This document shows positions 10,046-61,099 of a stretch of 64,000 nucleotides of DNA, piece after piece. Where the stretch lies: positions 1 through 64,000 of the IMG/VR virus record IMGVR_UViG_3300017730_000001, one strand, 5' to 3'. Position numbers and translations under genes: made by a program. The notes beneath the pieces are model-generated. The model ran no database searches, had not been told where the DNA came from, and saw only the letters and a list, made by a program, of their open reading frames with translations. Source of the DNA: a virus. Within the stretch, counting starts at the first letter, position 1; each line of letters starts with the position of its first letter.

Positions 10046-10864
10046 CTAGTCGGTTTTATTGATTTTGGGAACTTTCTTTTTGGGTACTTGAATGACATAT
10101 CTGTTCTCAACTACCTTTGGTTTATCTTTCTCAATCTTTCTTGCAATAAGACTTGTTGATGTTATCAATAGTAAAATCGCAAGTGGGTCAAACACAAAGA
10201 TGAGTGCAAAAATCACCCACCTAACAGCGTTGTCAAGGTACTTGACACTCTCTTCCTGACCATATATCACTTCTGCAACATACTTAATCGGACCAATCTC
10301 ACCCTCTTGCATGAGTTGTTCTCTTTTGAGAGGCATCAATTCTTCATTGTACTTGACTACTTGTTCAATTATAACATCCATATCTTGTGCAATCAAGTCC
10401 CTTTCTTCTTTTTGTCTACGGTCAATGTAGTTTCTATCTTGGGGTCTTGCAGTACTAATAACTAAATCTAATCCCTCTAGTCGTGTTTCTAGTCTCTCTA
10501 GTTTACCCTCTTCACCCTCTATTCTCTTCTCTATGATTGACATCTCAAGTGAAAACGAATCACCCTTAAGTGTCTGGTCTATGTTCGCCTTTGATAAGAA
10601 CCCAAAGATACCCAATGATGTAATTAACATCAATATGAAAACTGATAGGGTTAGATAATACTTCATGTAATTGAGTCTTTCCCAAAATAGATGTAGATAG
10701 GCGGCAGTGACTATTTTACCAAACTCTAATACACCAGTCATAATGACAACTGATAACCATGCACCTGCAAATATAGTTGCAAGACCAAGAACTGAGAAAT
10801 AGGCGGCGATACCTGCAATTACAAGAGAGGTACCTAGAGCCAAATAGTTTAAGAATTTTTCCAT
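10046..10864 (-). CDS. Multi-pass membrane protein with central coiled coil
   Basis: A 272-residue protein. Four hydrophobic segments are visible: three near the N terminus (about residues 8-28, 32-48 and 68-90) and one near 215-240. Between them lies a soluble, highly charged coiled coil (EKRIEGEEGKLERLETRLEG). The C terminus is basic (PKKKVPKINK). Similar proteins of unknown function occur in T4-like marine phages. The position directly behind the PAP2-domain gene hints at an envelope or virion-entry role. No enzyme motif is seen. Confidence 0.6.
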   Translation of the reverse strand: MEKFLNYLALGTSLVIAGIAAYFSVLGLATIFAGAWLSVVIMTGVLEFGKIVTAAYLHLFWERLNYMKYYLTLSVFILMLITSLGIFGFLSKANIDQTLKGDSFSLEMSIIEKRIEGEEGKLERLETRLEGLDLVISTARPQDRNYIDRRQKEERDLIAQDMDVIIEQVVKYNEELMPLKREQLMQEGEIGPIKYVAEVIYGQEESVKYLDNAVRWVIFALIFVFDPLAILLLITSTSLIARKIEKDKPKVVENRYVIQVPKKKVPKINKTD

Positions 10865-10867
10865 AAT

Positions 10868-12673
10868 TTACTTAGAGTATCTTTTTAAAAGACCGAAAAT
10901 CTTCTTAGAATCTTCTTTGTTCTTTTTGAGATACTTGTTTCTACTTCTTACTAAAGGTGTGTCTGTTGATACAGCACTACCTGTAGCGTTCACTGGCGCA
11001 TCTTCTTTTAAGTCATCTTTAAGATACTTTGCCATTTCATCTGCAAGTTGTATACCTGCGTTATAATCTGTTGGGTAATGCAACCCAGCTTGAACTCTTC
11101 CATATGCACATATATCAGCGGCATCTCTAAGATTACCCTCATGTTCTGGATATTTCTCTGCATAGAAGTTTGCAACCAGATATGGTTGCATTGAATGACC
11201 TGATGGATATGAAGGAGAGTTTGCAGTTCCTGTTTTCCATTTGTTAAGTTTCATATTAAGTGCTTCTGCAACTTGATATGGTCTAGGTCTGTTGAATGAA
11301 TTTTTAAAGTGTCTGATTACTGGTGTACATTGGTCTACGATGTAATCCATATACTCTTCATCAAACTCTAAGTCTGAGTCTTCCATGTATTCTTTGATAT
11401 AATAACATGGGTCATCGGCACAATTGATGTATTTCTTTTTGATGTCATCTGTTGCGTTGTTTGACTCTTTGATGACTGTTTCTAATTCTGACTTAGTTGT
11501 TTTAGAACTATTTGTAGGTGGGGGCATCATTTCTATTTCTGACCAACCATCTTCAAATATCTCTACTTTGTGATATTTGGGTTTCTTTAGTTTCTCAAAT
11601 ACATTGAATTGAAGTTTATCTATGTTCGATGGATTCATCAATGACTCTGTTGTTAGACCAAGTTTCTTGTCAACTTTTCTCAGTACATCACCAGTTGATG
11701 ACCTCATACTATCTGCCCAATCGACCATTTTCTTTTTAATCTCAGCGCCTTTCTTTGTATCACCTGCACTGACTAAACCTGAATATGTTAATGCCATTGC
11801 AAGACCAACAGGACCACCCATCCATATAGGTAGACCACCTGTTGCCATACCAGCACTCAATAAACCAATACCTTTGATACCATCTGGCGTTGCAATCAAG
11901 TCTGCGAACCCAGCGTTACCTGCAAAGGCGGCAGGTATAATAGTCAAGTCAAAATCAGATTCTATATCACCCGAGAATGACATTCTTAACCATTGTGCAA
12001 TTGCGAGACTAGATACACCAACAGCACTCATAGTTGCGAGTACTTTGTTTTTCTGCATGAACTCATCTGTTTTAATTAGACCCTTTTCTAACTGTTGGAA
12101 TGCCTTAGTGTCATGTATAGCGGCACCCCCTACTGTAAGAGTCTTACCCACAGTTCTAAGTGAACCCATTATGGTCTTAGATGTTGCAGTTATTGAACCA
12201 CCAATCGCCTTGACTGTATTGTATACTGAAGGTTCTTTAAATGCCTTACCAATCGTTGCGATATCTAAACCTATTGCATCTTTTAATTCACCAATGTGTT
12301 GTTTTAAGTCTGCAACTTGAGTTGGTAATGAACCACCAACATCGTTCTTAGGTTTCTCAGAAGGTGTGGCGTCCTTGTCGGGATTTGTCTTCGCTACATT
12401 CCCCTTCGGAGATTTTTTATCCGGTGCCGGTCTCGTATCACCTTGGTCGCCCTTTTTGGGCATTGATTGTAGTTTTCTTTTGAGTTCTTTTGCCTTGTCT
12501 GAATCTGGATGTGACTTGAGATAGTCTTGTTGTTTATCTGTAGACATGTCGAAGAACCATGCATCTTTCTTCTTGTCTTCTTCAACTAGAAGTTCTTCAC
12601 ATATGGAGTCTATTGCATCACAATATTGTTTGTAGTCTTCATCAATATGATATAGTACTTCGTTAATATACAT
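10868..12673 (-). CDS. Large protein with C-terminal PAP2/vanadium-haloperoxidase-like phosphatase domain
   Basis: 601 residues. The N-terminal 110 residues contain a phage-typical STDKQQDYLKSHPDSDKAKE segment and a charged linker. The middle (about 130-330) is rich in Gly/Ala with hydrophobic stretches able to enter membranes. The C-terminal domain (about 430-550) has the three PAP2 signatures: KNSFNRPRP, PSGHS and GRVQAGLHYPTD, with catalytic-type histidines and arginines all present. PAP2 enzymes remove phosphate from lipid phosphates such as undecaprenyl pyrophosphate. I infer an envelope-acting virion protein, possibly used at entry. The substrate is unknown. Confidence 0.7.
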   Translation of the reverse strand: MYINEVLYHIDEDYKQYCDAIDSICEELLVEEDKKKDAWFFDMSTDKQQDYLKSHPDSDKAKELKRKLQSMPKKGDQGDTRPAPDKKSPKGNVAKTNPDKDATPSEKPKNDVGGSLPTQVADLKQHIGELKDAIGLDIATIGKAFKEPSVYNTVKAIGGSITATSKTIMGSLRTVGKTLTVGGAAIHDTKAFQQLEKGLIKTDEFMQKNKVLATMSAVGVSSLAIAQWLRMSFSGDIESDFDLTIIPAAFAGNAGFADLIATPDGIKGIGLLSAGMATGGLPIWMGGPVGLAMALTYSGLVSAGDTKKGAEIKKKMVDWADSMRSSTGDVLRKVDKKLGLTTESLMNPSNIDKLQFNVFEKLKKPKYHKVEIFEDGWSEIEMMPPPTNSSKTTKSELETVIKESNNATDDIKKKYINCADDPCYYIKEYMEDSDLEFDEEYMDYIVDQCTPVIRHFKNSFNRPRPYQVAEALNMKLNKWKTGTANSPSYPSGHSMQPYLVANFYAEKYPEHEGNLRDAADICAYGRVQAGLHYPTDYNAGIQLADEMAKYLKDDLKEDAPVNATGSAVSTDTPLVRSRNKYLKKNKEDSKKIFGLLKRYSK

Positions 12674-33032: not shown

Positions 33033-33455
33033 TTATACCTGATTATGTTTTCTATGTGCAGTTTTTTCTGCCCAATCTTTCAATGCCTTTCTTATAGAAT
33101 CTTCTGCAAGAACAGAACAATGCAATTTGATTGGCGGTAGTTCTAATGCATCTGCAATTTCTTTATCTTTAATCAGTTGTGCCTCAGTCATGGTTTTACC
33201 CATTAAGAGTTCTACGAATAAAGATGAACTTGCAATAGCAGAACCACACCCATAAGTTTTAAATTTGACATCTTCAATAACTTCAGTATCAGGATTTACT
33301 TTTAAATCTAATTTCATTACATCACCACATGCAGGTGCACCAGCTAAACCGGTCACTACATTTGGGTCATTTGGGTCGAATCTTCCGACTCCATGTTTTG
33401 ATGGATTGTTCAAGACTTCTTCGAATCTATCGACTACTTTTTTTGAGTATGCCAT
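33033..33455 (-). CDS. iscU: IscU-type Fe-S cluster scaffold
   Basis: 140 residues, the full length of bacterial IscU. All key residues are present: cysteines at 43 (APACGD, with the modulating Asp45), 70 (TYGCGSAIAS) and 113 (KLHCSVLAEDSI), plus the chaperone-binding LPPIK at 106-110. It would assemble 2Fe-2S clusters with host IscS and HscA/HscB. It lies between polymerase gp43 and the nuclease, expressed from a late-type element 5 nt upstream of its ATG. Retention of every active residue argues for function, perhaps to supply Fe-S enzymes during infection. Confidence 0.9.
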   Translation of the reverse strand: MAYSKKVVDRFEEVLNNPSKHGVGRFDPNDPNVVTGLAGAPACGDVMKLDLKVNPDTEVIEDVKFKTYGCGSAIASSSLFVELLMGKTMTEAQLIKDKEIADALELPPIKLHCSVLAEDSIRKALKDWAEKTAHRKHNQV

Positions 33456-36233: not shown

Positions 36234-36524
36234 TTATTTTCTTACTTTGCCTCTTTGGAGGTTGTTGCCTGTCGCAACTTTAAAATTAGTTTCGAGTTGG
36301 GGCTTTGCTTCAAACACCGTCTGTATGAGGCCTGAATTGATTGTGAAGGTGTAATCTTTGGCAAAGGGAATCCACGGCGCCAAATTGACTTCCATAGTTC
36401 CATCTTTTACCTCCATTACACATACTTGAGCTTCTGAGATTATATAATCTCCATTCCACTTCTTCTCTACAAATCCAATCAGAACTTCACCTGTATCTAA
36501 TCTGATACATTTGACACTATTCAC
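36234..36524 (-). CDS. 96-residue small beta protein
   Basis: A strand-rich protein (MNSVKCIRLDTGEVLIGFVE; VCVMEVKDGTMEVNLAPWIP). The GEVLIGFVE and APWIPFAKD pattern resembles Sm/LSm-like small phage proteins of unknown function found in marine myoviruses. It overlaps the lysozyme gene by 8 bp. Confidence 0.5.
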   Translation of the reverse strand: MNSVKCIRLDTGEVLIGFVEKKWNGDYIISEAQVCVMEVKDGTMEVNLAPWIPFAKDYTFTINSGLIQTVFEAKPQLETNFKVATGNNLQRGKVRK

Positions 36525-36975
36525 AATTTCGAACCATGTCTTGTAGTTCTACTGACCTTCTTCCAACTTGACCGAACCATTTTGAGTCTTCCATTTCGAC
36601 TGCCATTTTTTCCCAATCGCATGAAACAACTCCTTTCCACATGTTATTAAATTTACCAAAACGACTTCCACCTAAGTTGAATGTCATGTTGACTAGTACA
36701 TGTTGAATGTCTTCTGGAAGACTATAGAAGTCTTCACCACCCTTAGATTCGAATAGGTGTATAGTTTCATCAACATGTTTGTCAAAGTCTGCCTCATAGT
36801 ATCTATCGACAGTTTCTTGACTGACTGGAGTACCTGCTGGTTCTCCAAATTCTGCATCATCTTCTCTAATAAGATGACCAACCCCTAAGGTTAAGTACCC
36901 TAGAGAATCTTCATAGACTTCAAGGACTTCGCCTTCATGTCTCTTAATTTGTTCTTTTAAAACATCTTTATTCAT
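36517..36975 (-). CDS. e: T4-type lysozyme (endolysin, GH24)
   Basis: 152 residues, close to T4 lysozyme. The catalytic triad spacing is conserved: Glu14 (KRHEGEVLEV), Asp23 and Thr29 (YEDSLGYLTLGVGHLI), followed by the C-terminal lobe with NMTFNLGGSRFGKF. It cleaves peptidoglycan between N-acetylmuramate and N-acetylglucosamine to release progeny. There is no signal peptide, so a holin is needed for export. Confidence 0.9.
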   Translation of the reverse strand: MNKDVLKEQIKRHEGEVLEVYEDSLGYLTLGVGHLIREDDAEFGEPAGTPVSQETVDRYYEADFDKHVDETIHLFESKGGEDFYSLPEDIQHVLVNMTFNLGGSRFGKFNNMWKGVVSCDWEKMAVEMEDSKWFGQVGRRSVELQDMVRNCE

Positions 36976-43832: not shown

Positions 43833-44422
43833 CTTCTTCCACAGTTTTTTTCTGCTCTGTGCCATACATTGTAGTTGTTGCCTACAACTAATGCCATTAA
43901 AAGATTTATATTATTCATAGTTTTTGGTTCTAGAGTCTGTCGTTCTATATCAGAATTGATTGCAGGTATGAGAACAAGTGTTTTAACAAGAAACATTTGT
44001 GGTACTGATGGTTGTTCACCAACAATTGGATTTATTTCATAAACACAATTGTATTTAAGTCCACGATAAGTTGTATAGATATCTGCAAGTTGTAGTGTGG
44101 TAAATGTAATCCACTGCTTAGTTGTGATTGGGTCAGATAGTGTAAATTGTGACTTGTTCTGATTTTCCTTTAACTGTAATCCTATCAACTCTAGTGAATG
44201 CTCTGTCTGGACATAGTTGATAAGTTCTTTCTGATAACAACAAGTCCACCCCATTATAATTTCTTGTTTGGCCTTCGAGTCTAGCGCCCAAGTTGACGGC
44301 ATCTCCGATGACGGAATAGTCAAATCTAAGTTCGGAACCCATGTTTCCGACAATACATTCGCCTGAACTGATACCGATGCCCACATTAATAGGAGGCAGG
44401 TTAAGAGGTTTAAGTTCTTCAT
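43829..44422 (-). CDS. Exported/membrane protein overlapping the cyclase gene by 290 bp
   Basis: 197 residues. The start at 44422 has AAAGGAATTAA directly upstream and encodes a convincing signal peptide (MKNLNLLTCLLLMWASVSVQA then N). The C-terminal half (ITFTTLQLADIYTTYRGLKY, then CVYEINPIVGE, then MFLVKTLVLIPAI) resembles DUF5658-like small membrane proteins. The first 290 bp lie inside the cyclase gene in another frame. The alternative ATG at 44254 would still overlap by 122 bp. Overprinting is unusual; the 3' half is surely coding, the exact start less sure. Confidence 0.6.
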   Translation of the reverse strand: MKNLNLLTCLLLMWASVSVQANVLSETWVPNLDLTIPSSEMPSTWALDSKAKQEIIMGWTCCYQKELINYVQTEHSLELIGLQLKENQNKSQFTLSDPITTKQWITFTTLQLADIYTTYRGLKYNCVYEINPIVGEQPSVPQMFLVKTLVLIPAINSDIERQTLEPKTMNNINLLMALVVGNNYNVWHRAEKNCGRR

Positions 44423-45971
44423 TTAATTCCTTTGTTGCATCTAGGACTTCTAGTGCTGATTTTACGGCAAGGTCTGCGTGGTTTTCACAATCAAGTGGTG
44501 CATTCCAAAAACTCATTATGCAATCCCCCATATACTTATCTATGGTTCCACTATTATTTAGTATGATTTTAGTTTGCATATCTAAAAACTTATTAATGAG
44601 TTCTACTAAACCTTCTGGATCATCTTTCTGCATATAGTGTTCGCTTATGGGAGTGAATCCGATTATGTACATAAACATGAAAGTCATCTCTCTTCTATCT
44701 CCGCCAAGTCTAAGTTTACTTGGGTCTTTTTGTAGTTCTTCAATCATGTCAGGAGATAAATACTTTTGGAACTGCTTCTTAATTTGTTCTTTGAGTTGGT
44801 AAGTAGTATAGTATTGGTTAAAAGAAGCGTGTCCGAAAACAACAACGGAGCTTAACGATGACCAGAAGATATCGAAAAGAACGAGATTGTAAAACCACAA
44901 ATAGTGACTTAACCCCACCTGAAGTAAAACGAACCCTACAGAGACTATCGCCGAGAAGGCTGTGGGAAGTTTGTAGACCGATACCAGTATTCCTAGAAGG
45001 ACTAACAGAAGAAGAAAAGTCTCGAGCATTTCAAGAGTCTCGGATACATGTATTTGAACTCCTGACGAAACGGTTTGGATTAGGTGTGCTTGAACTTCGT
45101 GAGGATACATTACACCCATTGGGGTTGAAACTGGAATAGATAACCCCTCAGCGGTTAGTCCATAGACTAGAATCTTTCCTTCTATATCAGAATCTTGCAA
45201 GTCTGCAAATGAGATAGATTCGAATTCGTTCCAATACGAAATCATCAAGTCTGCACTTGATGTGGTCTCTATTGGTTTGTCTCTTCCCATTTTAACCCAT
45301 TCAATACCTGCATCAGCAGTTACCCTAGTTTGATAATTGGGTTGGTCATAGTATGCTCTGAGAACTTCGAATCCTAAACTTGGATATAATTGACCATTTG
45401 CCTGGATGACTAGCGGAATCGCTCTGTTTGTTCCGTCAAAATTTGGTGTATTCGCCACAGGTGGTGTGGCAACTGTCACGCCCATACCCCAAGCTGAGTT
45501 TTGTAATTCGGTTCGGGGACTTACTAAACCTGAAAAGTTCCATACATGGTCTTGTATATTACCATCTCCGAATACAGATGTATTTACAAATGGTGCGTTG
45601 CCTGATTCTTTTTGAATTGTTGGTGCTGATGATAATATCGTTAATCTGTTTTCTAGTGCCTCTGCAAAGACTTCATCACCACCGAATCTATCTTCTTCTG
45701 CGAATAGTATATTGAATACATGAGTATTTGAGTGATGTGTTTCCCATAATGTATCTGCGTATATGTCTCTAGGGAAAGGATATTGACCGTACTTCTCTAT
45801 TGCCTTTTCATCTATGTTGACCAGTAGTATGTCATCTACTATCACTTTTTCTTTTTGTTGATGTAGAACATCGAAGTAAGACCATCTAACATTATCTATT
45901 AGATAAGGCGACCATATCTTTATGCCCACGAGTGCAATGATGGTTATAAGTACAGTTTTCCAATTATACAT
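44133..45971 (-). CDS. CHASE2-domain class III nucleotide cyclase
   Basis: 612 residues. An N-terminal TM helix (about 8-24) precedes a periplasmic CHASE2 sensor (about 25-310). Three TM helices follow (about 312-390), then a cytoplasmic class III cyclase domain (about 425-610). Most catalytic features are present: DKYMGDCIMSFWNAP with one metal Asp and substrate Lys, FDYSVIGDAVNLGARLEG with the base-binding Asp and catalytic Asn/Arg. The first metal aspartate, usually in FSDIRGFT, is Tyr here (FMYIIGFT), so activity may be lost or altered. It is followed upstream by curli-type genes and would sense the envelope. Confidence 0.85.
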   Translation of the reverse strand: MYNWKTVLITIIALVGIKIWSPYLIDNVRWSYFDVLHQQKEKVIVDDILLVNIDEKAIEKYGQYPFPRDIYADTLWETHHSNTHVFNILFAEEDRFGGDEVFAEALENRLTILSSAPTIQKESGNAPFVNTSVFGDGNIQDHVWNFSGLVSPRTELQNSAWGMGVTVATPPVANTPNFDGTNRAIPLVIQANGQLYPSLGFEVLRAYYDQPNYQTRVTADAGIEWVKMGRDKPIETTSSADLMISYWNEFESISFADLQDSDIEGKILVYGLTAEGLSIPVSTPMGVMYPHEVQAHLIQTVSSGVQIHVSETLEMLETFLLLLVLLGILVSVYKLPTAFSAIVSVGFVLLQVGLSHYLWFYNLVLFDIFWSSLSSVVVFGHASFNQYYTTYQLKEQIKKQFQKYLSPDMIEELQKDPSKLRLGGDRREMTFMFMYIIGFTPISEHYMQKDDPEGLVELINKFLDMQTKIILNNSGTIDKYMGDCIMSFWNAPLDCENHADLAVKSALEVLDATKELNEELKPLNLPPINVGIGISSGECIVGNMGSELRFDYSVIGDAVNLGARLEGQTRNYNGVDLLLSERTYQLCPDRAFTRVDRITVKGKSEQVTIYTI

Positions 45972-46037: not shown

Positions 46038-46217
46038 CTATTCAATTGTGGGCCACGCAAAAAAGAATATGTATAGACAAACACCAATGAGTGATATTGC
46101 AAGAACTGTTGACCAGAAACTTGACCACCATTGTTGTTTTTTCTTTCTACGATATTCGTTAACCATTGCGATGGTCCTTTCTCGTGCATCTTTTGAAAAT
46201 GGATTCGCTTCATTCAT
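46038..46217 (-). CDS. 59-residue single-TM protein
   Basis: Starts MNEANPFSKDARERTIAMVN, basic middle (RRKKKQQ), then a C-terminal TM helix (VLAISLIGVCLYIFFFAW). It lies between the cyclase and other tiny membrane proteins and overlaps the 33-residue frame by 4 bp. A longer overlapping frame in another phase (45986-46213) looks non-coding. Possible accessory of the secretion locus. Confidence 0.6.
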   Translation of the reverse strand: MNEANPFSKDARERTIAMVNEYRRKKKQQWWSSFWSTVLAISLIGVCLYIFFFAWPTIE

Positions 46218-46315
46218 AATATTAAACCGATAATAAAACCTATGTTTAGTCCTAAAGAACAGACTAAGATAAAGTCTTTTTTAAAAGAATACGGTATCAT
46301 GTCGATTGTGTTCAT
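46214..46315 (-). CDS. 33-residue membrane peptide
   Basis: MNTIDMIPYSFKKDF followed by a hydrophobic helix to the C terminus (ILVCSLGLNIGFIIGLIL). ATGA overlaps with both neighbours show it is kept in the operon. Function unknown. Confidence 0.5.
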   Translation of the reverse strand: MNTIDMIPYSFKKDFILVCSLGLNIGFIIGLIL

Positions 46316-46569
46316 GAGAATTTCTTCTGTATTCGTTTATAGATATAGTATATAGACAGTCCATAAGTAGCGAGAACAGTCATTGTAAAACCTATGTAAA
46401 TAAGTTCTATTGGTGTTAGGAAGAGAACTTGCCAAACGAAATCAGATGCAGCTTCTACATCACCCAAAGATTCAGGCATGACCATATCGTTCTCTTCAAA
46501 GAGTTCTAATATGTCGTCATACTCTTCTTCAGTGAGACACTCGTAAAACTCAGGTGGACATTCACTCAT
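46312..46569 (-). CDS. 85-residue single-TM protein
   Basis: The acidic N-terminal half (MSECPPEFYECLTEEEYDDI) is followed by a TM helix (about 50-75, PIELIYIGFTMTVLATYGLS) and a short basic cytoplasmic end. It is coupled by a 4-bp overlap to the curlin-repeat gene. The two N-terminal cysteines could cross-link. Role unknown. Confidence 0.55.
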   Translation of the reverse strand: MSECPPEFYECLTEEEYDDILELFEENDMVMPESLGDVEAASDFVWQVLFLTPIELIYIGFTMTVLATYGLSIYYIYKRIQKKFS

Positions 46570-47336
46570 TGTTGGGTCACCGATGTACTACAACCACCGA
46601 CTGTCATGCAATCGACTGATATAGTATAAGACTGAGTACCACTAGTACCAAATTGTAATAATGTTAAGTCTGTTCCATATAAACCATCAAGAGTTATATT
46701 TGCAGTGTGATTTGCACTAGTTCCTTTCTGACGGACATACACATCGTTATAATCATTGTAGATTGTTAAGTTTGTAGTTTTTACACCATTGCCTTGTTGT
46801 TTGATTTGAACTTCGTTATGGTCACCTGCTAAATGCAAATCAAAGTTATGACCATCCCATGCATTATGTTGATTTGTTTGTTGAACTGCTAATTTGTTAT
46901 AGTCGCCATACATTGTAATGTCTATCTCGTGTCCGCCACCTTCACTACCATCATGACTCCAATCTAAATTTGTTTCGGAGTCTAGTGAATCCCAAGTAAT
47001 GCCTTGACCAAGTTTCATTTTGTTACCAGTACCACTGACCTCATCAAATACAATTGAGTTGGGATAAGTATAACTTGATGATGTATTGTGTATGTTGTAT
47101 TGAACCATATACACACCTAGACTAGAAGCATTAATATATGAATTAGCATCTAACATTTTAATTTCATTATCGAAACCAATTTGTTCTATACCTAGTTCAA
47201 AATTATCTCCGCTTTGTTCAATAGATATAACATTGTCATCAGCGTATACAGGAAATACCATGAGATAACAAGCACCCCATGGTAGTATCCAGTATTTGTA
47301 AAATTTATTTTTTAATTTGTTTAAAAAATCCACCAT
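46566..47336 (-). CDS. Exported curlin-repeat protein (CsgA/CsgB-like), first copy
   Basis: 256 residues from the ATG at 47336. The signal peptide ends VFPVYA before DDN. The mature chain carries repeats with the curlin spacing of alternating hydrophobics and Q-x-G-x-x-N: VISIEQSGDNFELGIEQIGFDN, then MYGDYNKLAVQQ, LAGDHNEVQIKQQGNG, YNDYNDVYVRQKG and LYGTDLTLLQFG. Such repeats form amyloid beta-solenoid fibres. It ends with two cysteines (SVDCMTVGGC), mirrored in the second copy. CsgG/CsgF upstream would export it. The repeat pattern is clear; fibre formation is inferred. Confidence 0.75.
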   Translation of the reverse strand: MVDFLNKLKNKFYKYWILPWGACYLMVFPVYADDNVISIEQSGDNFELGIEQIGFDNEIKMLDANSYINASSLGVYMVQYNIHNTSSSYTYPNSIVFDEVSGTGNKMKLGQGITWDSLDSETNLDWSHDGSEGGGHEIDITMYGDYNKLAVQQTNQHNAWDGHNFDLHLAGDHNEVQIKQQGNGVKTTNLTIYNDYNDVYVRQKGTSANHTANITLDGLYGTDLTLLQFGTSGTQSYTISVDCMTVGGCSTSVTQQ

Positions 47337-47476
47337 AATAATAATCCTAAAATTAATCCCTCGGTGTATGACACCCATAACATTTCATATTCATCTAAAC
47401 CAAAATAGTCGGCAACTTCCCATGTTAGGTTTTCATGCCATTGTCTTAGTTTAGTAAAGTCAATATTTATGCTCAT
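47321..47476 (-). CDS. 51-residue protein with C-terminal hydrophobic segment
   Basis: From the ATG at 47476 behind AAGGAGAGATTT (the open frame extends to 47530 but without signals). MSINIDFTKLRQWHENLTWE is followed by a hydrophobic C terminus (YTEGLILGLLLWWIF). Overlaps the curlin-repeat gene start by 16 bp. Possibly a small membrane partner of the fibre locus. Confidence 0.55.
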   Translation of the reverse strand: MSINIDFTKLRQWHENLTWEVADYFGLDEYEMLWVSYTEGLILGLLLWWIF

Positions 47477-47486
47477 AAATCTCTCC

Positions 47487-48638
47487 TTAATCTTGTCGTA
47501 TAACAATTGTAATTCCATCTCCATCTCCAAATGTCATGACACCTGAGTATCCTGGAACTTCGGCATCTATAATACCCGAACCACCACTTGTTATAATTAT
47601 ATTTATGACTCCTTGGACATCACGAAAGAAAACTAAGTCTCCGTCTTGTTCGAAAACATTAAACTGAGAATCTTTGTTGAAACCTTGTGAGGCACCTTTA
47701 AGTGCAAACCCAGCTAATTCAGTACCCGAACTACTTTTGGAACCTAACGATACCGTGGTTCTCTCTAATTCTTCTATAACATCTAATAAGTCTTGTAAAA
47801 AATCCACATCCAAATAATCTATGTCCAACTCTGAAAATGATAAATCTTCAGTCGTATCGGCCAAAGCATCTCCCTCAAGTTCATTGAACTCTAAGAAGTC
47901 TACATCTAATAGACCTTGGTCATCATAGTTTTCATCTTGATAGGATTCTTCCATCGCATTTCGTATTTCCGAAGGCGGATTTACGATGAACATGTTGTCA
48001 ATCAGACTCGGTGTAATACCTTGAACCGTGACTGCTGTAGTTGGTGATGAATCAAACGATGCAACAGTAGTTGCCTGATATGGTTGATTTAAAACAACTT
48101 CACCACCGTCATTATAAACTAGTATTTCTCCAGATGATTCACCTGTATCTTCATCCGGAAGTAAGATTACCATAGTCCTTCCCAACTCATCAATGGTGGT
48201 TGTAAAATCTGTCCCTCTCATTGTGATATTGGCTGTAGGAGTAGATACATCTACATTTTGTTTTTTAATTCTTGAACCACCACCCGAGGCGAATCGTGCT
48301 GTGCCTCGTGCCATTCGTATTGACATTTTGGATAAACTTGGGTCGGGGTCGTAATATGCCTCGTCTATGTAAACGAGTGAGTTTTCTGTTAAACTCAATT
48401 TTTCATTATCTAAAAATTGTATGAGCATACGCCCATTGGCAGTCTCTGCTTCATCATACATGTTGATGTCTGTACCGACATCTGTTAGAATTCTGTCCTG
48501 CTCTCTTTTTACAGATGTGACACCTGTAGATTCAATTACACCGCCAATGGGCTCAGCCCAGCTGAACCCACCAGCGAATAATAAAAAGAAACTAACTATC
48601 GCTGCCGGAATCTTTTTGTGTAATCTGAATAATCGCAT
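47487..48638 (-). CDS. Exported FecR-domain protein
   Basis: 383 residues from the ATG at 48638 (a GTG two codons earlier is also possible). The signal peptide is AAIVSFFLLFAGGFSWA then EP. The FecR domain (about 30-200) contains GRMLIQFLDNEKLSLTENS, MSIRMARGTARFASG and STPTANITMRGTDFTT, the typical FecR ending. The rest is acidic and low-complexity with a C-terminal strand region (SGGSGIIDAEVPGYSGVM). FecR domains act in the periplasm, in signalling or surface display, and are often near CHASE2 cyclases in Gram-negative bacteria. Its start overlaps the second curlin-repeat gene. Confidence 0.75.
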   Translation of the reverse strand: MRLFRLHKKIPAAIVSFFLLFAGGFSWAEPIGGVIESTGVTSVKREQDRILTDVGTDINMYDEAETANGRMLIQFLDNEKLSLTENSLVYIDEAYYDPDPSLSKMSIRMARGTARFASGGGSRIKKQNVDVSTPTANITMRGTDFTTTIDELGRTMVILLPDEDTGESSGEILVYNDGGEVVLNQPYQATTVASFDSSPTTAVTVQGITPSLIDNMFIVNPPSEIRNAMEESYQDENYDDQGLLDVDFLEFNELEGDALADTTEDLSFSELDIDYLDVDFLQDLLDVIEELERTTVSLGSKSSSGTELAGFALKGASQGFNKDSQFNVFEQDGDLVFFRDVQGVINIIITSGGSGIIDAEVPGYSGVMTFGDGDGITIVIRQD

Positions 48639-49326
48639 TGTCACTGTTTACATTAAGATTGACATTTGCATTAGGTGTTGCACACCCTCCGCCAGAAGCT
48701 GCACATGTGCCTGATATCTGAGTGATATCAACATCAGCACTGTCTCCTGTAAAATCAAAATTAAGTGTTTGTGAACCATCTTTTTGCAATGTATTGAAAT
48801 TAGAACTAGAACCAGTCACATCGAAATTCCATGTGACATCATCTGATTCCCAATCAATATCAAAAACATTACTACTTCCAATGAGAACTAAATCCGCATT
48901 TAATCTCTCTGCACTTGCAACAGCACCTTGGTCGATATCGAATGTATTCGAATCGCCTGTCATTGCGAAATTGATGTCTGAATCATCTGAACTACCTGTA
49001 GAACCTATGTTCCAGTCAATAGCGTTAGAATCACCAGTCATCGATATAGCGTAGTTCGATGTATCGGCAACGAGAGGTCCGAATAACAAGTTCTTGTTAC
49101 CTATCATATCTATGTTGAAATCCAAAGTCACACCAGTAATGGTCATGTTTGAACCAGAACCACTTGAAAAGTCGTTTAGTCCTACTTTGTTACCAAAACC
49201 AACTTGGTCAACATATAATTTTAGAGTATCACCAACTTGTGTTATCATAATCTCATTATCATCAGTTGCAGCTGCGAAAACGAATGGTGTCGACATTAGT
49301 AATAAAATACTTAAAATTTTATTCAT
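48592..49326 (-). CDS. Exported curlin-repeat protein (CsgA/CsgB-like), second copy
   Basis: 244 residues. Signal peptide MNKILSILLLMSTPFVFAAA. The opening repeat NEIMITQVGDTLKLYVDQVGFGNKV is a curlin-type unit like that of the first copy (VISIEQSGDNFELGIEQIGFDN). The following units are more acidic: MTGDSNAIDWNI, MTGDSNTFDIDQG, LIGSSNVFDIDW, VTGSSSNFNTLQ and FTGDSADVDITQ. Two cysteines (GTCAASGGGC) precede a last unit NAIIQITQKDSG. It is probably a fibre subunit or nucleator. It is the gene directly downstream of csgG. Confidence 0.75.
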   Translation of the reverse strand: MNKILSILLLMSTPFVFAAATDDNEIMITQVGDTLKLYVDQVGFGNKVGLNDFSSGSGSNMTITGVTLDFNIDMIGNKNLLFGPLVADTSNYAISMTGDSNAIDWNIGSTGSSDDSDINFAMTGDSNTFDIDQGAVASAERLNADLVLIGSSNVFDIDWESDDVTWNFDVTGSSSNFNTLQKDGSQTLNFDFTGDSADVDITQISGTCAASGGGCATPNANVNLNVNSDNAIIQITQKDSGSDS

Positions 49327-50284
49327 TTTCTTCTCCTTTTATTGAGTGTAAATCATTTACACCATCACTATTGTGTGGGTGTCTATGACCTTCCTCTATT
49401 TTCCAAAAACCCCTATCATGCCCTTGGTAGATTAATTCCAGTACGGCAGCCTCAATAGCTGTTCGTACCGCATATGTCACTGACTCATTATTACCCACTC
49501 CGTCCTCGAACTCTAGCAATTGTGTACCTTCTTCAATGAATCGGAATACATCGCCGCCTGAACCATAAGAAAGGATAGTCTTTCTTGTTTGGACATTCAA
49601 TAATACTTCACCTGTTAGAACTGAAACAGCTCTCATACTAACCGTGACAGCATCTTGACGATACTGTCTACTAACTCCAATTCCTAGTGTCCTTGCGCCT
49701 CGACCACCAGTTAATAAATTGGAATCATAACCTATTATACCACCCTCTATTATCATACCTGCGAATAGTAAGGGTTGTAAATTTTGAAACTTGTCTTCGC
49801 CTTGTTGTTTAGCAAAGTCTTGTCTAGCAGAACGAATGATTTGTCTCTCTCTTACTAAGTTGTCTATGCCATGTCTTTCAACAACTCTGAACCATGTTCC
49901 TTTACCTGCCGTTTTAAGTGCATCAATAACCATTTCGGTTGCACCTTGTGTCACAGCAGTAGAAAATGATGCGAGATTATCTTCTGCCTTTCTTTGACCA
50001 GTCTTATCTATAAAATTATAAACTGCAACAGTAGGTCTTTCTTTTGCCTTAGGCAAATTCAGTAGTTCTAAATGTGAAGGTAGATTAATTACAGTAGCAT
50101 TTTCTACACATATGTAATTTCTAGACCATGCCTTTGCGACACCTGTGACAACATCTCTGCCGAAACCCTCATCAAATCTTCCTGTCTCATAGGCACAATC
50201 TGCTGGGTTGTCTGACCACTTTGGAACAGATGCACATCCAGATAGTAAAAGTACGCAGGTGAGTAAATATTTAACCAGTTCCAT
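49319..50284 (-). CDS. csgG: CsgG, outer-membrane curli secretion channel lipoprotein
   Basis: 321 residues from the ATG at 50284, the start that gives a lipoprotein signal (MELVKYLLTCVLLLSGCASV, lipid-bearing Cys17). Diagnostic CsgG stretches are present across the full length: VAVYNFIDKTGQRK, FSTAVTQGATEMVIDAL, VVERHGIDNLVRERQIIR, MIIEGGIIGYDSN, GGRGARTLGIG, the transmembrane-hairpin strands around QYRQDAVTVSMRAVSVLTGE and KTILSYGSGGDVFRFIE. It forms a nonameric pore that secretes curli subunits. It overlaps csgF by 14 bp. The gene looks intact. Confidence 0.93.
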   Translation of the reverse strand: MELVKYLLTCVLLLSGCASVPKWSDNPADCAYETGRFDEGFGRDVVTGVAKAWSRNYICVENATVINLPSHLELLNLPKAKERPTVAVYNFIDKTGQRKAEDNLASFSTAVTQGATEMVIDALKTAGKGTWFRVVERHGIDNLVRERQIIRSARQDFAKQQGEDKFQNLQPLLFAGMIIEGGIIGYDSNLLTGGRGARTLGIGVSRQYRQDAVTVSMRAVSVLTGEVLLNVQTRKTILSYGSGGDVFRFIEEGTQLLEFEDGVGNNESVTYAVRTAIEAAVLELIYQGHDRGFWKIEEGHRHPHNSDGVNDLHSIKGEENE

Positions 50285-50759
50285 CTGAGTCTTGTCCAAA
50301 GTTTCCTGTTCCGATTGGTATCTCAATAACTGTTTCTGTTCCATCGGAATCAACAATTGTCATTCGTATAAATTCTGAACCATCTTCGTTAGTCATTACT
50401 TCATATGTGACAACATTGCCCTCTAAACTAAATGAACCAAATCTAACTGAACCGTCATTCGAAAACATAGACTCAACCAATTGTTTTGCCATTTGAGCAT
50501 AAATTCGTGATTCTAAATTACGAATAAATTTGGCCATGGTTGTATTGTCTTCTGCCCTTTCAGCTGCCTTTCTAGCAGATTCAAGTGCATCTTCTATTTC
50601 TTTTTTTCTTGTAAACTCTTGGTTCTCAACGGTTAGGTAATGTGATGCTGTGCCTATTCCACTGAAACTAGGGTTTTTAAATTTATGTTTTATATCAGCC
50701 TGTACGCTTTCGCTAATACAGAATACTGAAACTAAGAATATGATTTGTAATAATTTCAT
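50271..50759 (-). CDS. csgF: CsgF, curli assembly factor
   Basis: 162 residues. Signal peptide MKLLQIIFLVSVFCISESVQA, then ADIKHKFKNPSFSGIGTASH, matching the conserved CsgF N terminus (FxNPxFGG) that inserts into the CsgG pore. A coiled-coil neck (about 50-95) and a strand domain (VTYEVMTNEDGSEFIRMTIV; DGTETVIEIPIG) follow. It caps CsgG outside the cell and couples secretion to fibre nucleation. It is translationally coupled to csgG. Longer than E. coli CsgF because of the extended helical neck. Confidence 0.88.
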   Translation of the reverse strand: MKLLQIIFLVSVFCISESVQADIKHKFKNPSFSGIGTASHYLTVENQEFTRKKEIEDALESARKAAERAEDNTTMAKFIRNLESRIYAQMAKQLVESMFSNDGSVRFGSFSLEGNVVTYEVMTNEDGSEFIRMTIVDSDGTETVIEIPIGTGNFGQDSDGTG

Positions 50760-51013: not shown

Positions 51014-51309
51014 CAGTCTCTCCTGACATCGAGCTTATCATCTTCTATGAAGTTTTCAGCTCTCGCAATTCTCTCTATGTCTGGTCTCAACTCTAAAGCA
51101 CTTGATACAAGTAAATCTATCTTAATCATTTCGTTAGACATTGTTCTTGCTCGATTTTCTAAAGATTTACAGAACATTGTAAGTGTGGAAATAGAATCAA
51201 CTACACCCTCAAGTATCTGTTTAATAACTATGAATATAAAGAACCCCATTACTACTGAACCAGCAATCGGAGCACCCACTTCACCTATTAGATTAAAAAT
51301 CTCTTCCAT
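51013..51309 (-). CDS. Small TM protein, holin-like (first of a pair)
   Basis: 98 residues. MEEIFNLIGEVGAPIAGSVV with a TM helix (about 15-35) and a soluble helical part (CKSLENRARTMSNEMIKIDL). Its topology is the same as its neighbour, suggesting an old duplication. A consensus late element (TATAAATA) ends 5 nt before the ATG, so the csgF-csgG locus may be transcribed late from here. Confidence 0.55.
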   Translation of the reverse strand: MEEIFNLIGEVGAPIAGSVVMGFFIFIVIKQILEGVVDSISTLTMFCKSLENRARTMSNEMIKIDLLVSSALELRPDIERIARAENFIEDDKLDVRRD

Positions 51310-51314
51310 ACTGT

Positions 51315-51322
51315 TATTTATA
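51315..51322 (-). promoter_or_regulatory. T4-late-type promoter (TATAAATA) at the head of the curli locus
   Basis: A perfect TATAAATA, then ACAGT, then the ATG at 51309. It is the only strong promoter seen between the terminator at 51346 and csgF. Confidence 0.65.
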
Positions 51323-51345
51323 CAAATTGTCTTTTCCTAAGGGCT

Positions 51346-51374
51346 AAAAAAAAGGGACTCTAACGAGTCCCTTT
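51346..51374 (-). terminator. Intrinsic terminator
   Basis: Minus-strand stem AAAGGGACTC/GAGTCCCTTT with a short loop, followed by eight Ts. It ends the 109-residue gene's transcript and separates it from the curli locus. Confidence 0.9.
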
Positions 51375-51396
51375 CGTGTCCTGGTAGGACTAATAA

Positions 51397-59946: not shown

Positions 59947-60528
59947 CTAGGTATTTCGAATATTGTCTTCGTTTAGATTTAGGTCATCGACTGGATATAA
60001 AGGCATGGTTCTATCGATGTCTGTGGTGAACCACATTGCGACTGTATGTCGTGGGTGTCTTCTAACTTTCTCAACACCATGTGGAATGTAGATGCCTTGA
60101 AATAAAAGGCCTGAACCTGTTTCTGGTTCGTATACTTCTCCGTCTGGTATATAAGTTCTACCACCCTTAAAATTATCATTGAGATAAAGAATACAAGTCC
60201 ATTCTCTAGCAGGTTTCTCTTCGTGTGTTCCGGCGTTCATCTGTTGATTTGAATATGTATCTAAATGTGGTGCTTGAACTCCGCCTATTGGCCATTCATT
60301 AATACCCACCATTTCAGGAAATACAACTTGGTCTGATATCTTTCTTATTTCGCCTATGAGATTGACCATGACTTCGGCAATCCATTTTCTTATTAAATTA
60401 TTCTGAATATGCATAAGTCTGATACCTGTGTAATCAGACCCATCACCAATTGCTGTTAAGTGTCTATGACTCTTGTGAAACTCTATCATCTGTTGACACT
60501 GTTCCTGTGTCATTAGATTCTGAATCAT
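59947..60528 (-). CDS. 2OG-Fe(II) oxygenase (prolyl-4-hydroxylase type)
   Basis: About 193 residues from the ATG at 60528 (MIQNLMTQEQCQQMIEFHKS); an upstream start at 60582 would overlap the deformylase further. Iron and cosubstrate residues are clear: QAPHLDTYSNQQ (HxD), LLFQGIYIPHGVEKV (distal His) and HPRHTVAMWFTTD (Arg region). WTCILYLND and GGRTYIPDG fit the P4H core. It shares a 65-bp overlap with the deformylase. Substrate unknown. Confidence 0.75.
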   Translation of the reverse strand: MIQNLMTQEQCQQMIEFHKSHRHLTAIGDGSDYTGIRLMHIQNNLIRKWIAEVMVNLIGEIRKISDQVVFPEMVGINEWPIGGVQAPHLDTYSNQQMNAGTHEEKPAREWTCILYLNDNFKGGRTYIPDGEVYEPETGSGLLFQGIYIPHGVEKVRRHPRHTVAMWFTTDIDRTMPLYPVDDLNLNEDNIRNT

Positions 60529-61099
60529 CTTTGGTGGATTGCATTTCTTGGAAGTATCTTGCGAGTGCAATTCTTCTTTCATACTCTAACCTCTTCTTTC
60601 TTTCTTTTACTCTTGCCTTTTGAGCTCGTTCAAGTTTTAATCTAGATGCTCTCTGTAAAAATAGTATACCGTTCAAGTGGTCAATTTCGTGTTGAACACA
60701 TCTTGCACCTATGCCTTCTAGTACAGCACTTTTCTCTTCACCTGTTTCATCTTGATATGTAAATTCGATTGTCTTTGACCTTTTAATCATTAAGAATAAA
60801 TCTGGAAAGGATAGACAACCCTCTTTCATTAAGTCCGTGTCTTGAGATACTCTAGTCAACTTAGGGTTGAAATAAGGAAGAACTTTAGACTCTTCGTCAC
60901 CCTCGTGCATAGTTCTCATAACAAACAATCTATACGGTAAACCAACTTGATTTGCCGATAGACCTAAACCACCAAACTTCTCCATTGCTTCTGCCAAGTT
61001 CTTGGTAATTTCTGCTGGGTCTTCTGGTGGATTTTCAAAGTCAAACTCCGGAGGTGGAGTTCTTAATACTTGTGATGCTTCTTCTATTAATTGATACAT
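60464..61099 (-). CDS. def: Peptide deformylase
   Basis: 211 residues. All three motifs are present: GLGLSANQVG (45-53), EGCLSFP (93-99) and QHEIDHLNG with the metal histidines at 137 and 141. It removes the formyl group from new proteins. A charged C-terminal tail (about 150-211, LKLERAQKARVKERKKRLEY) exceeds the usual phage length and may dock on ribosomes. A late core ends 5 nt before the ATG. Confidence 0.92.
   Translation of the reverse strand: MYQLIEEASQVLRTPPPEFDFENPPEDPAEITKNLAEAMEKFGGLGLSANQVGLPYRLFVMRTMHEGDEESKVLPYFNPKLTRVSQDTDLMKEGCLSFPDLFLMIKRSKTIEFTYQDETGEEKSAVLEGIGARCVQHEIDHLNGILFLQRASRLKLERAQKARVKERKKRLEYERRIALARYFQEMQSTKDDSESNDTGTVSTDDRVSQES

Follow-up and report, generated by a model that had tools for sequence, protein, structure and literature searches.

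Why would a virus carry its own curli-like secretion system, and what would it place at the surface of the infected cell? The question is raised by a 64,000-nucleotide stretch of DNA from a marine phage (the window hereafter), which covers positions 1 to 64,000 of the IMG/VR virus record IMGVR_UViG_3300017730_000001; the full record has 114,386 bases and may be incomplete. A curli-like type VIII secretion module occupies positions 51309 to 44133 of its minus strand and extends beyond the interval (46566-50759) given for it in an earlier note on this DNA. In the 5′ to 3′ direction, it encodes two small transmembrane proteins (TM1 and TM2), CsgF, CsgG, a curlin-repeat protein (Cur1), a FecR-domain protein, a 51-residue protein, a second curlin-repeat protein (Cur2), two small membrane proteins and a CHASE2 adenylyl cyclase (Table 1). 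The earlier note had seen in this locus a complete-looking phage module, equipped with subunits and regulators of its own, and the present analysis agrees. The most likely function of the module would be the production of surface fibres late in infection. In the form that we favour, to which we give somewhat less than an even chance, a phage-run fibre or coat would combine a constant subunit, Cur1, with a variable one, Cur2, and would most likely serve adhesion.

How would the subunits leave the cell? Matches to Pfam and to PDB chains, together with a lipobox (LLLSGC), bear out the intact CsgG lipoprotein channel announced in the earlier note. The same is true of CsgF, recognized by its Pfam match and by its CsgG-binding F-x-N-P-x-F motif, which is present as FKNPSF and kept in 49 of 50 distinct relatives (an initial scan of IMG/VR gave 141 related stretches). 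By homology, CsgG and CsgF form the outer-membrane exit, and Cur1 and Cur2 are exported beta-repeat subunits. CsgE and CsgC, which had been called absent, were indeed not matched in the 114-kb record, within the limit set by its possible incompleteness. Neither is essential, and PMC9599517 describes both as absent from alphaproteobacterial operons.

What would be exported? Cur1 and Cur2 have signal-peptide-like starts and degenerate repeats of the curlin type, a type in which the repeat has about 22 residues. The N-x-hydrophobic-x-hydrophobic-x-Q core is kept, whereas the full Q-x-G-x-x-N motif is mostly found in the first repeat only. The repeats exceed chance in both proteins: the hydrophobic period of Cur1 (11/22/33 residues) was equalled in 0 of 5000 shuffles, and that of Cur2 (25-27 residues) has a p value of 0.0005. 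Thus, the two exported proteins with Q-x-G-x-x-N repeats that had been proposed are retained as far as export signals and periodicity are concerned, but with weak Pfam matches and a motif that is rarely complete. AlphaFold2 models of both proteins are all-beta, with a mean predicted local distance difference test score (pLDDT) of 75-76 and a predicted template modelling score (pTM) of 0.73. A beta-solenoid fold, on which the earlier note had made its reading depend, would be compatible with these models and with the best PDB structure match of the Cur2 model, a beta-helix (SufB/D, E 7e-4); the Cur1 model gave no significant match among PDB structures. The arrangement first described needs one correction. 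The FecR-domain gene and the 51-residue gene, also inside the initial interval, stand between Cur1 and Cur2 and separate the two subunit genes.

Do the two subunits evolve alike? Comparison of 51 loci carrying the five core genes indicates that Cur2 is an exchangeable cassette, swapped wholesale between otherwise near-identical phages. Between one group of four loci and another of eight, CsgG, Cur1, FecR and the cyclase are 93-98% identical and CsgF is 89-98% identical, whereas Cur2 is 44% identical; a second pair of loci shows the same divergence pattern. At the DNA level, identity falls at the start of Cur2 and recovers past it, with sharp edges. With Cur2 types cut at 60% identity and placed on a tree built from CsgF, CsgG, Cur1 and FecR, 18 type changes are counted where 10 would be the minimum. 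Within Cur2, the first and last strands and two invariant cysteines near the C-terminus are conserved, and the middle of the protein is variable. The second curlin gene of the pelagiphage HTVC008M (positions 10450-11784 of locus L081), of about 440 residues, is much longer than the Cur2 gene of the window and its product poorly resembles the latter. It is another sign of Cur2 diversity.

When would the module be expressed? The T4-type late promoter motif TATAAATA precedes TM1, and NATAAATA occurs in 45 of 48 distinct module-upstream regions of relatives, where 0.85 would be expected; upstream of seven internal genes, it gives one match in all. Counted within the window only, the exact 8-mer does not exceed its chance frequency, so that the case for a promoter rests on position and conservation. 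A terminator hairpin just upstream sets the module apart from the preceding gene, and similar hairpins are found in many relatives. A late-phase promoter probably switches the module on, and the conserved T4-type motif suggests that its genes would be transcribed as one late unit. In this phage, NATAAATA also stands at 13 nt before a peptide deformylase gene (60464-61099) and a NifU-like gene (33033-33455), hence it is not confined to virion genes. Late promoters were searched in the phage Melnitz by PMC9004378, in the available text of which we found none reported for the module.

Timing and Cur2 exchange bear on two other views of what is exported. According to the first one, proposed in PMC9599517, the coat would mask receptors and exclude superinfection by blocking the adsorption of competing phages to the cell in use. 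The diversification of Cur2 would fit such an arms race; however, protection driven by a late promoter would come too late for the phase in which exclusion is most profitable, and we consider this function unlikely. According to the second one, the secreted fibres, or Cur2, would bind released virions and help them to reach hosts or to stay near them. Late timing and a tail-fibre-like exchange of Cur2 would suit this role, but Sec-type signals and CsgG indicate export from the cell, which leaves it improbable.

Could the pore itself be what matters? As proposed in PMC9004378, CsgG and CsgF might be a channel for lysis timing or uptake, the repeat proteins being secondary. This idea is compatible with late expression and with the two small membrane proteins adjoining csgF, for which a weak match to a holin family was obtained (phrog_4898, E about 1e-3). 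On the other hand, purifying selection acts on the subunit genes, Cur2 has diversified, the CsgG-binding motif of CsgF is nearly always kept, and TM1/TM2, unlike a general holin, are confined to phage records with csgG: of 50,697 such records searched, HTVC008M and Melnitz alone contain them, and both carry csgG. Moreover, a T4-type phage lysozyme is encoded elsewhere in the record, far from the curli module (36517-36975, minus strand; PF00959, E 6e-8), and this gene weakens the suggestion of the earlier note that the module opens the outer membrane at lysis. Altogether, we hold a mere pore to be quite unlikely.

TM1 and TM2 deserve a closer look. The pair is present in 80 of the 80 csgG loci having room upstream. 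Conversely, csgF is found in 138 of 140 IMG/VR TM loci having room, in scans that keep the closest relatives only. In two viral loci (L269 and L278), relatives of the pair have neither csgF nor csgG downstream. General holins were rejected as an identity for these proteins, the family match being weak and their occurrence tracking csgFG. The same is true of histidine kinases, the published label: HisKA and HATPase domains gave no match at E values up to 5 in 24 members, which are proteins of about 85-115 residues.

Is the module under selection in the phage? For nearly all gene pairs outside the swapped Cur2, the ratio of nonsynonymous to synonymous substitution rates (dN/dS) is about 0.02-0.36 (close relatives were compared), with TM1 mostly at 0.02-0.09 and TM1/TM2 mostly the lowest of the module. 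The existence of bacterial sister operons might suggest that the module is a passenger, that is, a bacterial curli operon acquired without any selected function in the phage. Against this stand purifying selection, the conservation of a phage promoter, and a TM pair that is specific to phages and present in every locus with room for it; this explanation is largely refuted by the selection data and is very improbable.

The sister operons combine csgF, csgG, a curlin gene, FecR and a CHASE2 cyclase in three bacterial loci, one on a 705-kb contig of a Hyphomonas metagenome-assembled genome (MAG) and two in closely alike Caulobacteraceae MAGs. Ordinary bacterial genes flank the Hyphomonas locus and one of the Caulobacteraceae loci (L090). 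Search for the Hyphomonas cyclase in 81 surrounding genomes found only itself, so that this type of bacterial operon is documented by three loci, from two lineages. In a CsgG tree, the three bacterial proteins appear to group with viral CsgG, apart from 63 other bacterial sequences. The grouping is moderate, because the joining branch has a Shimodaira-Hasegawa-like approximate likelihood ratio test (SH-aLRT) value of 90 and some branches are long. PMC9599517 states that bacterial curli operons do not include FecR and the cyclase; these three loci contradict that statement, on few examples.

What would the FecR-domain protein and the cyclase do? The former has a sole hydrophobic segment, signal-like, at residues 11-29, followed by the FecR domain. 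The layout of FecR sigma-factor regulators, with a cytosolic N-terminal domain before the membrane helix, was not observed, nor was a second membrane segment. A curlin-type strand ends the protein in 45 of 45 distinct viral relatives, against 2 of 653 background frames; as the motif was read off the same proteins before counting, this count describes conservation and is no blind test. The strand is also present in the two Caulobacteraceae loci. Ending in such a strand, the FecR-domain protein may bind, in the periplasm, either the subunits or the base of the fibre, and pass a signal to the cyclase via CHASE2. In the window, cyclase residue 435 is a tyrosine (TAC, 44667-44669, minus strand) instead of the first of the two metal-binding aspartates of class III adenylyl cyclases; the second one is kept. 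Alignment of 35 cyclases, with a codon check, shows the first aspartate in every other viral relative aligned, even where a record has 99.9% identity across 7.6 kb. Thus, the family has both aspartates and the window copy, as sequenced, has one, Tyr435 being due either to sequence variation or to an error in the assembly of the window record. A cyclase dead across the family was considered and rejected, since the tyrosine occurs in the window record only.

From these elements, the following scheme may be imagined. Cur1 and Cur2 would cross the inner membrane by Sec and exit via CsgG:CsgF to build, late in infection, a fibre or a coat at the surface of the infected cell. Cur1 would be the constant subunit. 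Cur2 would be the exposed, exchangeable part that fixes binding specificity, in the way phages swap tail-fibre tips. The coat would most likely be adhesive and hold nearby cells close to the site of the burst, the 'sibling capture' proposed in PMC7029224. In favour of late adhesive fibres are the gene families with intact frames, the late promoter and terminator, the all-beta subunits with curlin-like periods, purifying selection, the exchange of Cur2, the invariable FecR strand, a gene order shared with HTVC008M and Melnitz, and the transcription of viral module genes in ocean metatranscriptomes (PMC9599517). Several points weigh on the other side. The fibres are so far unseen, and Melnitz-infected cells showed no clumping in cytograms or electron microscopy (PMC9004378). 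The CsgE gate was not found in the 114-kb record. The repeats are degenerate, Cur2 alone passes the Pfam cut-off, and Cur1 lacks a significant structural match. Finally, lateness is based on a sequence motif and not on measured timing, and the exchange of Cur2 shows diversification rather than a binding target. A fuller version, a recombining fibre system with an assembly sensor, where the late extracellular adhesin has its specificity in Cur2 and the single curlin strand of FecR reads fibre assembly and reports to the cyclase, is possible but doubtful. At least, Cur2 exchange, the conserved late promoter and the FecR strand turn the problem into specific questions: what each subunit binds, at which stage it is produced, and whether FecR is a sensor of assembly.

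Table 1. Positions of the module genes and of the upstream signals in the window.
Feature	Position	Strand	Remarks
Intrinsic terminator, hairpin and T-run	51345..51385	minus	fold -17.7 kcal/mol, z -4.45; 0/200 shuffles as good
T4-type late promoter motif	51315..51322	minus	13 nt before TM1 start codon
TM1, 98 residues	51013..51309	minus	phrog_18771; one transmembrane helix, then long helical-looking tail
TM2, 85 residues	50756..51013	minus	phrog_18771; TM1 paralogue
CsgF	50271..50759	minus	PF10614 E 1.5e-13; frame intact
CsgG lipoprotein outer-membrane channel	49319..50284	minus	PF03783 E 1.6e-54; PDB CsgG chains E 4e-49; frame intact
Cur1, conserved curlin-repeat subunit	48592..49326	minus	signal-peptide-like start; Pfam Curlin_rpt E 7.9e-4, just under cut-off
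Exported FecR-domain protein	47487..48638	minus	PF04773 E 1.3e-9; C-terminal curlin-type strand ITIVIRQD
51-residue protein	47321..47476	minus	hydrophobic C-terminus; no family; in many, not all, relatives
Cur2, variable curlin-repeat subunit	46566..47336	minus	signal-peptide-like start; Pfam Curlin_rpt E 8.8e-5, just over cut-off
85-residue membrane protein	46312..46569	minus	in part of relatives only
59-residue membrane protein	46038..46217	minus	in part of relatives only
CHASE2 adenylyl cyclase	44133..45971	minus	PF05226 E 2.5e-29; PF00211 E 6.5e-17

Is such a module new? It is not: it belongs to an already published kind. CsgF and CsgG were reported in pelagimyophages (PMC7029224), then CsgF, CsgG, CsgA/B, FecR, a second CsgA/B and adenylate cyclase in pelagimyophages and pelagipodophages, with related modules widespread in ocean viromes (PMC9599517). 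The Melnitz module was described together with a proposed role in lysis (PMC9004378), and the GenBank annotation of HTVC008M includes a 'curlin minor subunit CsgB'. No match to the region was obtained by megablast among cultured phages. Phage-like curli modules also occur in 14 loci on contigs binned as Synechococcus, Bacteroidota, Planctomycetota, Rhodobacteraceae and Pelagibacter genomes; these are probably phage contigs misbinned into MAGs. In the available text of PMC7029224, PMC9599517 and PMC9004378, we did not find reported the exchange of the Cur2 cassette, the C-terminal strand of FecR, the late promoter across relatives, the TM pair devoid of a kinase domain and tied to csgFG, or FecR and cyclase within three alphaproteobacterial curli loci. 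Two published points are thereby questioned, the 'histidine kinase' label and the location of FecR and cyclase outside bacterial curli operons.

How does the module compare with known systems? CsgG, CsgF and beta-repeat subunits are common to the phage module and to E. coli curli (csgBAC/csgDEFG). In the phage, however, CsgE and CsgC were not found, the repeats are degenerate, and FecR and a cyclase belong to the operon. The Burkholderia BiofilmReg operon also has an exported FecR-domain protein adjoining a CHASE2 sensor, but CHASE2 is fused there to a histidine kinase instead of an adenylyl cyclase, and csg genes were not found reported in the available part of the description (PMC5192318). 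The alphaproteobacterial curli operons of Hyphomonas and Caulobacteraceae share csgF, csgG, curlin protein(s), FecR and CHASE2 cyclase in one operon with the phage. They differ in that no match to TM1/TM2 was found in them and that the Hyphomonas FecR lacks the C-terminal strand. The Melnitz curli genes match those of the window in content and order; the available text of PMC9004378 says that csgA/csgB are lacking, whereas the Melnitz record itself annotates two curlin-repeat proteins. In the published pelagiphage module (PMC9599517; PMC7029224; HTVC008M, NC_020484), the 'histidine kinase' label given to the genes before CsgF is unsupported here, but one or two small proteins, CsgF, CsgG, a curlin protein, FecR, a second curlin protein and a cyclase follow one another in an order identical to that of the window.

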